In this document: one piece after another, positions 2,354-7,723 of the stretch | Layout: every line of letters starts with the position of its first letter | How positions within the stretch are numbered: position 1 is the stretch's first letter | NCBI RefSeq assembly: GCF_033558715.1 | Contig: NZ_CP114606.1 | Location: 186,001 to 250,000 of the forward strand | DNA: 64,000 bases | Reading direction: 5' to 3' | Origin: Acinetobacter sp. YWS30-1 | Lineage (GTDB): Bacteria > Pseudomonadota > Gammaproteobacteria > Pseudomonadales > Moraxellaceae | The notes under the pieces: generated by a model | The model's input: the letters and a program-made list of their open reading frames with translations, nothing else | Told to the model about the DNA's origin: nothing | Database searches by the model: none | Position numbers and translations under genes: made by a program

Positions 2354-2382
2354 AAAAACCAGAGCTAGGCTCTGGTTTTTTT
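2354..2382 (+). terminator. Intrinsic terminator of kup
   Basis: CCAGAGC and GCTCTGG form a 7-bp stem with a 3-nt loop and seven T residues, starting about 7 nt after the kup stop codon. Confidence 0.9.
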
Positions 2383-2415
2383 AGGGGAGAGAAATTTAGA
2401 AAGCTTTATAACAAA

Positions 2416-2973
2416 TTATTGTTCTGTTGCTTCTGTCTCAACCGGCATTTCAGGGGCGGCGTTTAAAGGTGCATCTACCGCAGGATCAGCTTCAGCTTCT
2501 ACTGCAATTTCAGTTTGCTCAGTCATCGCAGCCGCTTCAGGTGCAGCAGCTTGCTGTTCTTCAAGAGCTGGTTGCTCTACAGCTTCACCCATAGTCATTT
2601 CCTGTTCTGTAGCAGGGGCTGCTGGTTCAGACTCAAGATTGGCTGGAGCTGGATTGGTATCCGGCATTTCTGGTTGTGCAACAGGTGCATCAGGCATGCC
2701 TGGTGTTGGCATTGGCTGATTTGGCATTGATTGTTGTGGCTGCTGGCCTGGCTGAGCAGGTGCAGACATTGGCTGGTTTACCAGACGGATCTGTCCAGAG
2801 TTCACCAGGCTTTCCAGTGAGGCTTGCTGACCATTTACAGTGGTACTAATTTTAGCTTTAGATAAGCTTTCAAGTGTTTCACCCGCTTGTACAGGAGGCT
2901 CAGCGAATGCGCCGGCACTGATCACACTTGTAAATATTCCGAGACCTAATAACTTAGATAGTTTGGAATTCAT
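2416..2973 (-). CDS. Exported Pro/Glu/Ala-rich protein of unknown function
   Basis: 185 residues. A Sec-type signal peptide runs from residue 1 to about 24 (hydrophobic core LLGLGIFTSVISAGAFA, AxA-type site before EPP). About 50 ordinary residues follow. The rest is low-complexity sequence rich in Pro, Glu, Ala, Gln and Met, with repeated PMPTPGMP- and PEMP-like units, which suggests an extended, acidic, unstructured periplasmic or surface segment. There are no cysteines in the mature part and no recognisable domain. It is convergent with kup and divergent from the nuclease gene. I do not recognise a function. The acidic disorder could reflect a linker or chaperone-like role, but that is a guess. 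Confidence 0.7.
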   Translation of the reverse strand: MNSKLSKLLGLGIFTSVISAGAFAEPPVQAGETLESLSKAKISTTVNGQQASLESLVNSGQIRLVNQPMSAPAQPGQQPQQSMPNQPMPTPGMPDAPVAQPEMPDTNPAPANLESEPAAPATEQEMTMGEAVEQPALEEQQAAAPEAAAMTEQTEIAVEAEADPAVDAPLNAAPEMPVETEATEQ

Positions 2974-3239
2974 AAATTAACTCCATTGCTAATAATTGTA
3001 CGTAATTTGAGTAGTCAAATAGCTTTGCACACTCAAGACGAGGTCACAATCAAAGCTACTTAAAGGTTAAAAAACCGCGCTGAAAGCTCACTAAAAAAAC
3101 GACACTTTGTTACAAGATTTAAGAATATAGGGGTAGATTGTGTAATTATTAGGCAAATAAAGAGGGTAAGATATACTTCATATACATGGCTTGTTAAGCT
3201 CGCAAAACCCCCGATTTTGATCTTAAAAGCACGTGTAGC

Positions 3240-4337
3240 ATGGCAAAGAAGCAGCGTAAGTCGAAGAATTCAGTTTTTCAGTTTTTTAATGAAAATAGCG
3301 TGAAAGTGATCCTGGCAATGGTCGCTTCCGGGAGTTTTGCGATTGCGTTTGGCCAGGAAAAAATCAGTCAGTGGATTTCTCTGCCTTCTACATCGAATTC
3401 GAGCTGTCTGGAACAGTTTTACCGGGACATCCCGCCTTCCTTAATGAAAGACAGCCTGAAAAAAGACAGTTATTCACTGTGTTTTAATGGCTTTAATGTG
3501 GGTTATTCTGGGGTATCCAAAACGCCACTATGGGTGGCGGAGGCCTTAACACCGAAGCGTCTGAGCCAGAAAATTCCACGTGAAGACAATTTCCATGAAG
3601 AAACACGACTGAGTGCTGCTCATCGCGCGACTTTGGCTGACTATCGTGGTTCAGGCTATGACCGTGGCCATATGGCACCAAATGCAGATATGCCAAATAA
3701 AGCTTCACAGTCTGACAGTTTCTCGCTGGCCAATATGGTCCCGCAGGCACCAAAGAACAATCAGCAGGTTTGGCGTGAGCTGGAAGAAGCAACCCGTGCC
3801 ATTGTGACCAAGCAGAAGCAGGACGTATATGTAGTGACCGGGCCGGTCTTTGCTGCCAAAAAGCTGAAAACTATTGGCAAGGGTGTAATTGTACCAACTG
3901 CCGTGTATAAAGCGATCTACATGCCGAAAACTGGTGCCATTGGTGCCTACTATGCACCTAATGATAATTCGCTCAAGGTTCGCATTGTCAGTGTCTGCTA
4001 TCTGGAAGAGCAGCTTGGCATTAACCTGTTTCCTCAGTTAACTGAAGAACAGAAACGCAATACCTATCATCTGCCACTGACTGCAAATGCTGTGAAGGCC
4101 AACCAGAAAATTGCCTATTCGAATTGGGATGCAGAAAGCCAGTGTGCTGAAGATGTGCCGAAAGAAGATCTGGAAAAACTGCAGCGTGAGTTCAAACCGT
4201 CGGCTTCAAGTTCGGCCAGTACAAGCAATACCAGCTCATCAGTTAATAAGAACGGGATCGATCATGATACCCAGGACACGATTGTTAAACAGCTGATTGA
4301 GGCCTTACTGCAATACATCCTGCAGCTGCTGAAATAG
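3240..4337 (+). CDS. Membrane-anchored DNA/RNA non-specific endonuclease (NUC1 / beta-beta-alpha-metal family)
   Basis: 365 residues. A basic N-terminus and one hydrophobic segment (about residues 21-38, VKVILAMVASGSFAIAFG) suggest a membrane anchor or uncleaved signal. The nuclease core follows with the family signature DRGHMAPNAD at 141-150, in which H144 is the expected general base. Downstream come N165 and the conserved NMVPQAPKNNQQVW-LE helix that carries the metal-binding asparagine. The C-terminal ~50 residues are a Ser-rich linker and a short hydrophobic helix. The family (Serratia nuclease, NucA, EndoG) cuts DNA and RNA without sequence specificity. Periplasmic or surface location is inferred from the N-terminus. 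A degradative or nutritional role is likelier than a toxin role, because no immunity gene is evident beside it. Confidence 0.88.
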   Translation: MAKKQRKSKNSVFQFFNENSVKVILAMVASGSFAIAFGQEKISQWISLPSTSNSSCLEQFYRDIPPSLMKDSLKKDSYSLCFNGFNVGYSGVSKTPLWVAEALTPKRLSQKIPREDNFHEETRLSAAHRATLADYRGSGYDRGHMAPNADMPNKASQSDSFSLANMVPQAPKNNQQVWRELEEATRAIVTKQKQDVYVVTGPVFAAKKLKTIGKGVIVPTAVYKAIYMPKTGAIGAYYAPNDNSLKVRIVSVCYLEEQLGINLFPQLTEEQKRNTYHLPLTANAVKANQKIAYSNWDAESQCAEDVPKEDLEKLQREFKPSASSSASTSNTSSSVNKNGIDHDTQDTIVKQLIEALLQYILQLLK

Positions 4338-4740: not shown

Positions 4741-5811
4741 TTAAATCTGATATGGGACATTAATCTCTGCGGTAGCAGGATAGTCCAGAAATTTTTCCTG
4801 CACCTGGGTTTTTAGATATTCTGAGCGCCATTGTTGTGGTGTTTGAGCCGTCCACTGCTTGAAGGCACGCTGAAATGCGCTCTGCTCAGAATAGCCAAGC
4901 AGCATGCTGATTTCCTGCAGACTCAGATGAGGGTCTTTCAGATATTGCATGGCCATCATGCAGCGGATTTCCTGCATACGCTGCTGATAGGTCTGACCCT
5001 GTTTTTGCAGGTAACGTTGTAGCTGACGTACAGAAAAATTCATCTGTTTGGCGATATGTTCAATCTGGAACATATTTTTCTGCAGACCCACCAGAATCGC
5101 CTGTTGCAAGCGCTGATCAATCTGGGTGGAGTTCGGAAGTTTTTCCAGCACCGCTTCTGCCTGTTGCATCAGTAATTTCTGTAAGGTCTGATCACCTTTC
5201 TTTAAAGGCGTAGACATTTCACTCACAGGAATCAGTACCTGATTTTTGGCCTGTCCAAAACGGACCTTGCAGCGGAAATACTGTTCATAGACCGCAATAT
5301 TTTTATTGACCGGATGCTGAAAATGGACTTCATGCAGATGCAGTTGATGCTGGTCAAGAATGCTTGAGCGAATAAATTCAGTCATGAGCGCGATAGCAAT
5401 CTCATCTGTGAGTTGCGTACTCACTTTAAACGGAATCTCGCTCCAGGAAATGGACAGGTAATCTCGATCCAGACTGACCTGTAAAGGACTGCCATCATAG
5501 ATCAGGCGATGATAGTCATGATAACGCATAAAGGCTTCGCCCAGCGTTTCACTGGATAATGCCAGATAGCCAATAATACCCAGATGCTTGGCTTGCACCA
5601 GTTGCGCGATTTCCAGGCCGAGTGCTGGCCGCTGCAACTCCTGGTCCAGCTGGCTGAGCAGATCACGCCAGAGAATATAATCAAAACGCTCCAGGTTCTG
5701 GATCGCAAACAATTTCTTGGGAATGTCCAGTTGTTTGAGCTGGTAATAGTCCAAAAGCAAATGTCCTAAACCACCATATACCGAACCGACATAATCTTGG
5801 GGAACGTGCAT
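4741..5811 (-). CDS. AraC-family transcriptional regulator (Arabinose_bd-type sensor domain)
   Basis: 356 residues. The N-terminal ~200 residues match the layout of the AraC ligand-binding domain seen in OruR/ArgR-like regulators (Arabinose_bd family). The C-terminal ~100 residues carry two helix-turn-helix units: the first around IEHIAKQMNFSVRQLQRYL, the second around LSLQEISMLLGYSEQSAFQRAFKQW, which is the classic AraC signature. It is divergent from a membrane hydroxylase gene, and the shared spacer holds two GTCAAT half-sites 22 bp apart, as expected for an AraC-type activator. The same arrangement recurs downstream of the hydroxylase. The inducer is unknown; by context a lipid or sterol-like molecule is possible. 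Confidence 0.9.
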   Translation of the reverse strand: MHVPQDYVGSVYGGLGHLLLDYYQLKQLDIPKKLFAIQNLERFDYILWRDLLSQLDQELQRPALGLEIAQLVQAKHLGIIGYLALSSETLGEAFMRYHDYHRLIYDGSPLQVSLDRDYLSISWSEIPFKVSTQLTDEIAIALMTEFIRSSILDQHQLHLHEVHFQHPVNKNIAVYEQYFRCKVRFGQAKNQVLIPVSEMSTPLKKGDQTLQKLLMQQAEAVLEKLPNSTQIDQRLQQAILVGLQKNMFQIEHIAKQMNFSVRQLQRYLQKQGQTYQQRMQEIRCMMAMQYLKDPHLSLQEISMLLGYSEQSAFQRAFKQWTAQTPQQWRSEYLKTQVQEKFLDYPATAEINVPYQI

Positions 5812-5840
5812 TTTTTAATTCTTTTGTTCTGTCGTTTTTT

Positions 5841-5894
5841 GTCAATGATATTGAAATTATCGGTCAATATCTAGCCCTTTGTTTGACCTATAGT
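5841..5894 (+). promoter_or_regulatory. Predicted AraC-type operator/promoter of the hydroxylase gene
   Basis: GTCAAT half-sites start at 5841 and 5863 (22 bp apart, two helical turns). The -10-like TATAGT is at 5889-5894, 26 bp after the start of the second half-site. The second half-site overlaps the -35 position, which has no good TTGACA match, as in activator-dependent class II promoters. The same geometry occurs at 6588-6641. Binding by the divergent AraC protein is inferred. Confidence 0.6.
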
Positions 5895-5919
5895 GTAAAC
5901 AAACAGGGAGGAAAAGATC

Positions 5920-6513
5920 ATGTGGAAAGGCTTTCTAGCAGGACTGGTCGTAGCCAATGGCTTTGAATGGTTTGCGCATAAATATGTGCTGCATGGTACG
6001 CATCGAGCAGGGCAGACGCGTTATAGCCCAGTGCCGGACAGCATGCGTTCACATTGGGAACATCATCGTGAAGTTCGCAAGACCAGATTTTCTGATTATG
6101 CCTATGTGGAAGGTTTGAAAAACTGGCGAATCCGCAATGAAATCGGTTCACTGGCCGTCGCAGCAAGCGTATTCGGGCTGGCTTTTTATCCCTTGTCCAA
6201 AGGTATGTTTTTGGCCACGCTGTATAGTGCAGGCAATTATTTCTATATGCATCGGCGAGCACATCTGGAGCCAGAATGGGCCAGAAAAAAAATTCCCTGG
6301 CATTATGATCACCATATGAATAGTAACCAAGACGCCAACTGGTGTGTAACCAAGCCCTGGTTTGATTATTTGATGGGAACCCGGGTGATTTCCTCAGCAG
6401 ATTTACAGGAAAAAAATCCCCTTGGTATTGTCTTGCCGGAACAGATCTCTATGCGCTTAACCCACTTAACCCAGCGTTATTTCCCGGCTAAATGGGCTAA
6501 AGATCGTGATTAA
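5920..6513 (+). CDS. Fatty acid hydroxylase / sterol desaturase superfamily membrane protein
   Basis: 197 residues with the histidine clusters of the di-iron membrane hydroxylase superfamily: HKYVLH (20-25), HWEHH (45-49), HRRAH (111-115) and HYDHH (128-132). A hydrophobic stretch lies between the second and third clusters (about 75-108). The family introduces hydroxyl groups or double bonds into lipids such as fatty acids, sterols and carotenoids. This is a short, bacterial-size member. The start has a good ribosome site (GGGAGG about 8 nt upstream). It sits divergent from the AraC gene behind the predicted AraC-type promoter. The substrate cannot be read from the sequence. Confidence 0.85.
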   Translation: MWKGFLAGLVVANGFEWFAHKYVLHGTHRAGQTRYSPVPDSMRSHWEHHREVRKTRFSDYAYVEGLKNWRIRNEIGSLAVAASVFGLAFYPLSKGMFLATLYSAGNYFYMHRRAHLEPEWARKKIPWHYDHHMNSNQDANWCVTKPWFDYLMGTRVISSADLQEKNPLGIVLPEQISMRLTHLTQRYFPAKWAKDRD

Positions 6514-6587
6514 ATAACTTAAATTTCGAGTAATCTGCCACATAAAATGTTAACCATTTCTCACTTTGGTTAACCCTGTCGTGATTT

Positions 6588-6641
6588 GTCAATAAATTCT
6601 GCATATATTGTCAATATTGTGCTCAGGATTTCACCTATATT
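6588..6641 (+). promoter_or_regulatory. Second predicted AraC-type operator/promoter, driving a non-coding transcript
   Basis: GTCAAT half-sites start at 6588 and 6610 (22 bp apart). TATATT at 6636-6641 starts 26 bp after the second half-site begins. Spacing matches the promoter at 5841-5894 exactly, and flanks are shared (TTTGTCAAT for the distal half, GTCAATAT for the proximal half, ACCTATA at the -10). No protein gene follows on this strand before hisF, which runs the other way. Confidence 0.6.
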
Positions 6642-6647
6642 TGCGTC

Positions 6648-6768
6648 GGTTGATGATTGAAAGTCTTATCAACCTGCATACAGATTGAGTTATATTGTAA
6701 ATGTCAAAGATACCAAGTGCTGTAGTTCTTCTTGGTTTTTATAGGGAGTCGCAAGACTCCTTTTTTTT
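6648..6768 (+). ncRNA. Predicted small regulatory RNA (about 121 nt), possibly AraC-controlled
   Basis: The start is placed about 7 nt after the -10 box at 6636-6641. Three hairpins are visible. The first is GGTTGAT (6648-6654) with ATCAACC (6668-6674), right at the predicted 5' end. The second is ACCAAG (6712-6717) with CTTGGT (6731-6736). The third is a terminator, GGAGTC (6745-6750) with GACTCC (6755-6760), closed by a GCAA tetraloop and followed by eight T. The terminator is about 230 nt past the hydroxylase stop, so it is not a simple gene-end terminator. Other features of an Hfq-type sRNA cannot be judged. Two short frames inside lack ribosome sites, and one runs through the terminator. 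The exact 5' end is inferred. Confidence 0.6.
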
Positions 6769-6803
6769 GTCCAGAATTTAAATGATTTCTAAGAATAATG
6801 CAT

Positions 6804-6835
6804 AAAAAAAGAGCGTGATATTCACGCTCTTTTTC
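6804..6835. terminator. Intrinsic terminator downstream of hisF
   Basis: GAGCGTGA and TCACGCTC form a stem with a 3-nt loop, flanked by A-rich and T-rich runs. It lies directly after the hisF stop on the minus strand and can work in both directions. Confidence 0.9.
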
Positions 6836-6851
6836 ATTTGAAGGCTGTCGT

Positions 6852-7610
6852 TTAAAGACGCATTTCAATACCTTGAGCAGCTAGATAAGCCTTGGCTTCA
6901 GGAATGGTATGTTGGCCAAAGTGGAAAATAGAGGCGGCAAGTACTGCATCGGCACCACCATGGATAATCCCGTCAGCCAGATGCTGCAAGTTGCCTACGC
7001 CACCAGAGGCAATCGTTGGTACAGTGACGCGGTCATTGATAGCACGCATGAGTGGAATGTCATAACCTGCTTTGGTGCCATCGGCATCCATAGAGGTAAT
7101 TAACAGTTCGCCTGCGCCGTAGCTGGCCATTTTTTCTGCCCATTCCAGGGCATCAATGCCGGTCGGTTTGCGTCCGCCGTGGGTAAAGATTTCCCATTTA
7201 TTCTCGCCAGTTTTTTTGGCATCAATCGCTACCACGATACATTGCGCGCCAAAACGCTGTGAGGCTTCCTGTACAAACTCAGGGTTGAAGACGGCTGCCG
7301 AGTTGATGCTGACTTTATCCGCACCTGCATTTAATAGTAGACGAATATCTTCGACTTTACGCACGCCACCGCCTACTGTAAGCGGTACGAATACAGATTC
7401 AGCCATACGCTCAACGGTACGGTAAGTGGTGTCGCGTCCATGATGTGTAGCGGTAATATCAAGGAAAGTAATTTCATCGGCACCTTGTTCATTATAACGG
7501 CGTGCCACTTCTACCGGGTCACCCGCATCACGAATATCAAGGAACTGAACACCCTTGACTACGCGACCGTTGTCGACGTCCAGACAAGGAATAATACGTT
7601 TAGCTAGCAT
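6852..7610 (-). CDS. hisF: Imidazole glycerol phosphate synthase subunit HisF
   Basis: 252 residues, a (beta/alpha)8 barrel that uses ammonia delivered by HisH to close the imidazole ring, producing IGP and AICAR in histidine synthesis. The start [12 protein letters not shown] is the invariant HisF N-terminus, with catalytic Asp at residue 11; the second catalytic Asp is in VVAIDAKK (near 130). Phosphate-binding TVGGGV and ASGGVG loops are present. I chose the ATG at 7610 (GGAAAAATTT upstream) rather than a TTG four codons earlier. It sits apart from hisA/hisH/hisB, but all four share the same strand. Confidence 0.97.
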
Positions 7611-7723
7611 AAATTTTTCCAATTATTACAGCCGATTATGAAACTCACCCACGCAAGCGCTACACCTTGGTAGATGGAAACGGTATTCTAGCAAAAATAT
7701 GTAAGTTTTTTCGCAGGTTTTCT

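Follow-up and report, generated by a model that had tools for sequence, protein, structure and literature searches.

We identify in Acinetobacter an apparently undescribed small RNA (sRNA) that would be activated by an AraC-type regulator, would probably act by base pairing and would share its activator with a neighboring hydroxylase gene, a reading to which we give, as a whole, a probability of about 70%. That positions 6648-6768 hold a real and apparently non-coding sRNA gene seems close to certain from the comparison of genomes. It is also very likely, judging from the sequences of the promoters, that one activator of the AraC type is common to the sRNA and hydroxylase genes, and the sRNA itself probably works by pairing with other RNAs.

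The DNA analyzed is a stretch of 64,000 nucleotides (the window) of the forward strand of Acinetobacter sp. YWS30-1 (NZ_CP114606.1, 186,001 to 250,000), whose genome has 3.3 Mb. The araC-type gene (minus strand), the hydroxylase gene (plus), the sRNA candidate (plus), and hisF (minus) follow each other in this order, the first two being divergent (Table 1). The regulator matches the Pfam profiles PF12625 (97.3 bits) and HTH_18 (67.7 bits) and reaches no equivalog cut-off of NCBIfam, where the nearest family is QhpR (197.9 of 250). The hydroxylase scores 28.4 bits with PF04116, slightly below the cut-off of 31, and this domain is present in its relatives. Of the named loci that we fetched, the one closest to the window is from A. 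variabilis NIPH 2171, whose hydroxylase is 98% identical. The presumed link to lipid modification comes from this FA_hydroxylase-type neighbor.

When the whole window was compared with Rfam 15, tRNAs alone reached the gathering score. The literature that we searched, from which supplementary tables and most subscription journals were left out, has no description of this RNA or of its operator. This would make it an apparently undescribed sRNA family for which the presumed activator and operator are already identified, and it opens an uncharacterized pair of PF12625 regulator and hydroxylase to experiment.

Table 1. Features of the candidate sRNA locus (positions in the window)
Feature	Position	Strand	Basis or detail
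AraC-type regulator gene, presumed activator	4741..5811	-	PF12625 ligand domain and AraC helix-turn-helix
Operator 1, before hydroxylase gene; GTCAAT twice in tandem, 22 bp apart	5830..5870	+	exact match in own-genome search
-10 box TATAGT of hydroxylase gene	5889..5894	+	18 nt past operator 1
Hydroxylase gene, FA_hydroxylase / sterol desaturase type, 197 aa	5920..6513	+	PF04116
Operator 2, layout as operator 1, upstream of sRNA	6577..6617	+	GTCAAT at 6588-6593 and 6610-6615; exact match
-10 box TATATT of sRNA gene	6636..6641	+	18 nt past operator 2
Candidate sRNA gene, type I, about 121 nt, predicted start 6648	6648..6768	+	fold; model R1
5' hairpin	6648..6674	+	fold
Core hairpin, ACCAAG/CTTGGT, 13-nt loop	6712..6736	+	fold; moderate support in relatives
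Core AGTGCTGTAG, genus form AGYGCTGTAG, presumed pairing region	6716..6725	+	conservation, unpaired probability
Intrinsic terminator, GCAA loop, T8	6743..6768	+	stem 6743-6762, T8 6761-6768
hisF	6852..7622	-	3' end at 6852

Operators of the hydroxylase gene and of the candidate sRNA

The two promoters have the same layout. The one of the sRNA reads TGTCGTGATTTGTCAAT-N16-GTCAATAT (6577-6617), then 18 nt, then TATATT, and the one of the hydroxylase gene reads TGTCGTTTTTTGTCAAT-N16-GTCAATAT (5830-5870), then 18 nt, then TATAGT. A distance of 22 bp between repeats amounts to about two helical turns and is common for tandem sites of AraC-type proteins. An earlier, sequence-only reading of this DNA had placed a promoter at 6588-6641. 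A predicted promoter is indeed present there, but it is not of the consensus sigma-70 kind, none of which was listed at the sRNA locus by our scan: its -10 box stands behind the tandem operator, which is of an activator type and overlies the -35 region. The same reading had left control by AraC as a supposition, for which the evidence is now strong but indirect: the operator and its spacing to the -10 box are shared with the hydroxylase gene, which lies beside an araC-type gene, and a search of the own genome (3.3 Mb, up to 3 mismatches) found no place beyond operators 1 and 2, with one match for the reversed control pattern. The operator common to the enzyme gene and the RNA gene suggests that both are probably switched on together by one activator.

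This layout is conserved among 81 loci, made up of the window and of 80 named loci retrieved via the hydroxylase (the best 80 of 407). An operator scoring at least 20 of 25 lies upstream of the hydroxylase gene in 73 of the 81 loci and downstream of it in 58, and several of the loci that miss this threshold have repeats one base closer. In 80 of the 81 loci no other place scores above 19 for the operator. The exception is L053 (A. terrestris ANC 4471), which has an insert of about 1 kb (approximately 2370-3470) between operator 1 and the hydroxylase start, with a frame that looks transposase-like by eye. The best -10 box lies 18 nt past the operator in 69/73 cases for the hydroxylase and 48/57 for the sRNA (8 more at 19, 1 without), with a script that resolved ties in favor of 18. 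When at least 4 of 6 matches are demanded, the numbers at 18 nt are 69/73 and 38/57 (8 at 19, 11 without), relative to 8 of 405 random places in the control. Almost all loci with the downstream operator (57/58) also carry the recognized terminator, and the last one (L071) carries a variant of it.

Two explanations would dispense with a promoter for the RNA. The region could be merely the 3' untranslated region (UTR) and terminator of the hydroxylase mRNA, any sRNA being a product of processing or read-through. Between 5500 and 6743 the scan lists no other plus-strand terminator, so that the hydroxylase mRNA probably ends at the sRNA terminator and would carry the same sequence, and sRNAs derived from 3' UTRs are known in A. 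baumannii, such as HemZ (PMC12802169). Yet at 57 loci an operator and a -10 box stand at a fixed spacing between the stop codon and the RNA, and operator 2 and its -10 box disappear along with the RNA, which makes this explanation quite improbable. According to the second explanation, operator 2 would be an auxiliary site of the hydroxylase promoter, acting by DNA looping like distal AraC sites. AraC-type proteins can loop DNA, and the two operators are within about 750-830 bp of one another in the genomes listed. We regard this as very improbable, since operator 2 is followed by a -10 box at the same spacing, by the conserved 3' half of the RNA and by a terminator, and since operator 1 occurs alone in the A. 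calcoaceticus-baumannii complex. A predicted promoter of its own and an intrinsic terminator with a U tail, as in base-pairing sRNAs of the Hfq type, are found here both in the sequence and in its conservation.

One genome of the genus has a third exact operator (G031:C4:1246479-1246518), distant from the locus, where the regulator may have a further target.

Structure and conservation of the RNA

The three hairpins noted in the sequence-only reading are all present in the window, the last being a terminator with a GCAA loop and T8, and the RNA ends, as had been said, close to the 3' end of hisF on the other strand, with 83 nt between them. Taken alone, the fold of 6648-6768 is only modestly unusual (z of -2.03, with 7 of 200 shuffles equally good), and terminator-like sites in 5500-7600 are as numerous as expected (2 observed, 2.0 expected). 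The candidate rises above chance because it is conserved in the genus: a DNA search with 6580-6775 found relatives in 69 of 175 genomes, and the covariance model R1 found the type I 3' half, once per genome, in 73 of them. In the 31 matched loci that were read (L001-L031, two of them from the own genome), the hydroxylase gene adjoins in all and hisF in 30. Across the family, R1 matches 73 of 348 genomes under strict filters, all of them Acinetobacter (1 of 16 genera), and no match was found in the 15 other genera searched.

We aligned 41 type I sequences (alignment A2), omitting four near-identical rows of A. lwoffii and four degenerate loci (L048, L052, L054, L082), and including L078 and L087 despite operator scores below 20. 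In the type I RNA the 5' part varies among relatives, while conservation is confined to the 3' part, made of the core, a CTTGG arm, UUUAUA and the GGAGUC terminator. Hence, the conservation in relatives that the earlier reading had asked for was found for the operator, the 3' half and the terminator. It extends in part to the first hairpin: some relatives keep a hairpin at this place, but its sequence changes, and the 5' ends of several relatives form hairpins of differing sequence. The GCTGT columns of the core are at least 90% conserved, and the core is lost in 3 of the 41 rows (L060, L074, L077), which keep operator and terminator. Its mean unpaired probability is 0.82 in the window RNA and 0.36-0.95 in relatives.

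Support for the core hairpin across relatives is moderate. RNAalifold on the 41 sequences predicts the terminator alone, while many relatives can form a stem of 6-8 bp, of varying sequence, around the core. The mean stem score exceeds that of shuffles by a small amount (7.5 vs 6.3); that the difference is so small is due in part to rows in which the core was misplaced by the script. Some loci (L046, L047, L048, L052, L054) have no operator 2, and most of these keep terminator-like remnants of the RNA, apparently a case of gene decay.

Alternatively, an ATG at 6701 could begin the frame of a small protein, about 26 aa long. The frame of this ATG crosses the core in the window, and an in-frame ATG occurs in 11 of 41 relatives. 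However, 19 of the 41 have no start in the frame of the core, the core-to-terminator distances fall into all three classes modulo three (26, 8 and 7 of 41), and the frame passes through the terminator. As no reading frame is conserved, in a test that omitted L060, L074, L077 and four degenerate rows and in which L079 was not placed, we rejected this hardly credible explanation in favor of a non-coding RNA.

A second form of the RNA

Some genomes keep the operator and the place of the RNA but have a different RNA, which we call type II, with UUACCCUCU, a small GCGUU hairpin and an ACCUUG/CAAGGU terminator. The corresponding model, R2, finds it in 34 of the 175 genus genomes (30 strong matches). 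In a tree of hydroxylase and regulator, type II is a single clade (support 100/98) with the A. calcoaceticus-baumannii complex, which has no RNA, next to it, and the three RNA labels require 8 changes on this tree, relative to 31.6 in shuffles (L071 was labeled type II by eye, L078 and L087 type I). This suggests that an old type I gene was lost several times and re-made once, a history that we infer from a tree rooted at its midpoint. If the 3' end of the RNA was indeed replaced in one clade, with operator and position kept, this would show that evolution can direct such a switch to new targets. A single tree on which the RNA is present, absent or changed at its 3' end provides a natural experiment.

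The motif GCGYUG could be taken for a core common to both types; it was not relied on, as it lies within a hairpin stem in type II. One genome (G084) carries RNAs of both types, each accompanied by an operator pair, on contigs C4 and C16, corresponding either to two copies of the locus or to a mixed assembly.

Joint presence and absence of RNA and operators

The RNA and the second operator are present or absent together. We counted operator sites genome-wide with up to 3 mismatches in the 175 genomes, after dropping four weak R2 matches (E of 2.4e-4 to 9.5e-4). At least two sites are found in 85 of the 102 RNA-bearing genomes vs 2 of the 73 RNA-less ones. Among the 72 type I genomes, there are 0, 1, 2, and at least 3 sites in 1, 16, 52, and 3, respectively; the 29 type II genomes have two (24) or at least three (5), and the genome with both RNAs has four. 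The RNA-less genomes have none (34), one (37), or at least two (2). Some of the 17 RNA-bearing genomes with fewer than two sites at this threshold fall short because their repeat spacing differs by one.

The sRNA is absent from all eight sampled loci of the A. calcoaceticus-baumannii complex (L084, L086, L089, L090, L093, L097, L100, L103), where 41-45 nt separate the stop codon of the hydroxylase gene from hisF and the only operator left is operator 1. The papers on sRNAs of the genus that we found concern A. baumannii; since the species of the complex sampled here are without the gene, catalogs of A. baumannii sRNAs may have missed it. The sole locus labeled A. baumannii (L087, ACIN00150) has the RNA; the tree of hydroxylase and regulator places it with A. 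guillouiae, and the species name of this record looks doubtful.

Proposed mechanism and similar systems

In the working that we propose, the AraC-type protein (4741-5811) would meet a signal, perhaps lipid-like, and bind both tandem operators, whose phasing is 22 bp and of which one precedes the hydroxylase gene and the other the sRNA gene. At each of them it would cover the weak -35 region and recruit RNA polymerase to the -10 box 18 nt downstream. The sRNA so transcribed would end at its own U-rich terminator, would probably be held by Hfq via its U-rich 3' end, and its loop core AGYGCUGUAG would pair with target mRNAs, a Porin_7 mRNA being a weak candidate for one of them. A tentative and rather unlikely extension of this scheme is a regulon with essentially no more than two promoters, turning a lipid or envelope signal into envelope-lipid modification and silencing of porin mRNAs.

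Regulator genes beside the sRNA genes that they activate are known from the SgrR-SgrS system of enteric bacteria. The candidate has the same adjacency; in contrast, its operator is shared by an enzyme gene, and SgrR is not of the AraC type. Another sRNA of Acinetobacter, Aar, presumably lies at a locus different from that of the candidate, and the two RNAs are compared here by description only. Aar is, like the candidate, a genus-restricted sRNA of around 100 nt in which the 3' part is conserved and ends in a terminator, and it pairs with the mRNA of an outer-membrane protein via a 9-nt seed (PMC11472050). Both A. baumannii and A. nosocomialis have Aar (PMC11472050), whereas the candidate locus is absent from the A. 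nosocomialis genome sampled here.

sRNAs activated by AraC-type proteins are a kind already known, and TarB would be the closest to the candidate in its working. In Vibrio cholerae, the AraC-family protein ToxT activates the sRNAs TarA and TarB which, like the candidate, have an intrinsic terminator and are preceded by directly repeated boxes of the AraC type, such as drive protein genes as well (PMC3136459). The tandem boxes upstream of a -10 box are thus found in the candidate as in TarB. The systems differ in that ToxT has a large virulence regulon, while the presumed regulator of the candidate has two sites in its own genome, and in that binding of ToxT was shown in V. cholerae (PMC3136459), while the operators described here are known from sequence and the RNAs are likened by layout.

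Search for targets

The complement of the core (CTACAGCRC) has 40 sites in the own genome, one being the opposite strand of the sRNA gene itself, vs 36 for the reversed control, i.e. there is no enrichment of target sites in this genome. One site lies in a Porin_7 gene (L145/L183), where 11 bp complementary to the core cover codons 8-11; it ranks eleventh by duplex energy among the core-complement sites of the genome. Of 18 such genes read in type I genomes, 13 retain the 9-mer (missing in L184, L190, L194, L200, L207), compared with none of 8 read in controls (4 type II, 4 RNA-less with a complex-type operator), counts that leave out one type I gene (L199) and one control (L214) that the scripts did not read. 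This contrast is confounded by kinship. Moreover, two control porins (L213, L217) keep 8 of the 9 letters, and a porin paralog in an RNA-less genome (L224) carries the whole 9-mer. The duplex z-scores of 15 Porin_7-type genes range from -2.39 to +1.32. Synonymous codons are kept at 0.69 in codons 2-14 and 0.57 after codon 21, but also at 0.72 in codons 16-29, so that their conservation is not specific to the site. Among the loci read, no Porin_7-type gene was identified in 11 of 30 type I genomes; hence, the porin cannot be the sole target. It is a weak lead, and we find it doubtful that its mRNA is a direct target of the sRNA.

Four related porins share almost the same 5' untranslated region and signal peptide, although identity in their mature parts is about 50%. 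In the own genome (G000:C1:135802-137629) and in relatives (L184-L198), Porin_7 genes stand in tandem, and one of them preserves this 5' segment between species while its mature porin diverges, down to about 50% identity, as though the 5' module were maintained independently of the protein.

Two other sites were checked in 24 type I genomes and rejected. One precedes a gene that we read as hydrolase-like (L153), and the other lies where a gene that we read as permease-like begins (L154). The former is kept in 1 of 8 located starts, that of the nearest relative (L243), 16 of 24 not being located. The full 9-mer of the latter is found in none of 30 loci read, some of which are paralogs; its nearest relative (L267) keeps 8 of 9 letters.

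Finally, an almost full complement of the sRNA loop, AGAAGAAACTACAGCGC, with one bulged A, occurs elsewhere in the genome (L148, approximately 1478-1545; G000:C1 near 288490). It directly precedes an intrinsic terminator, downstream of which lies a gene that we take to be rpsO, and it may be a sponge-like site or a chance occurrence.
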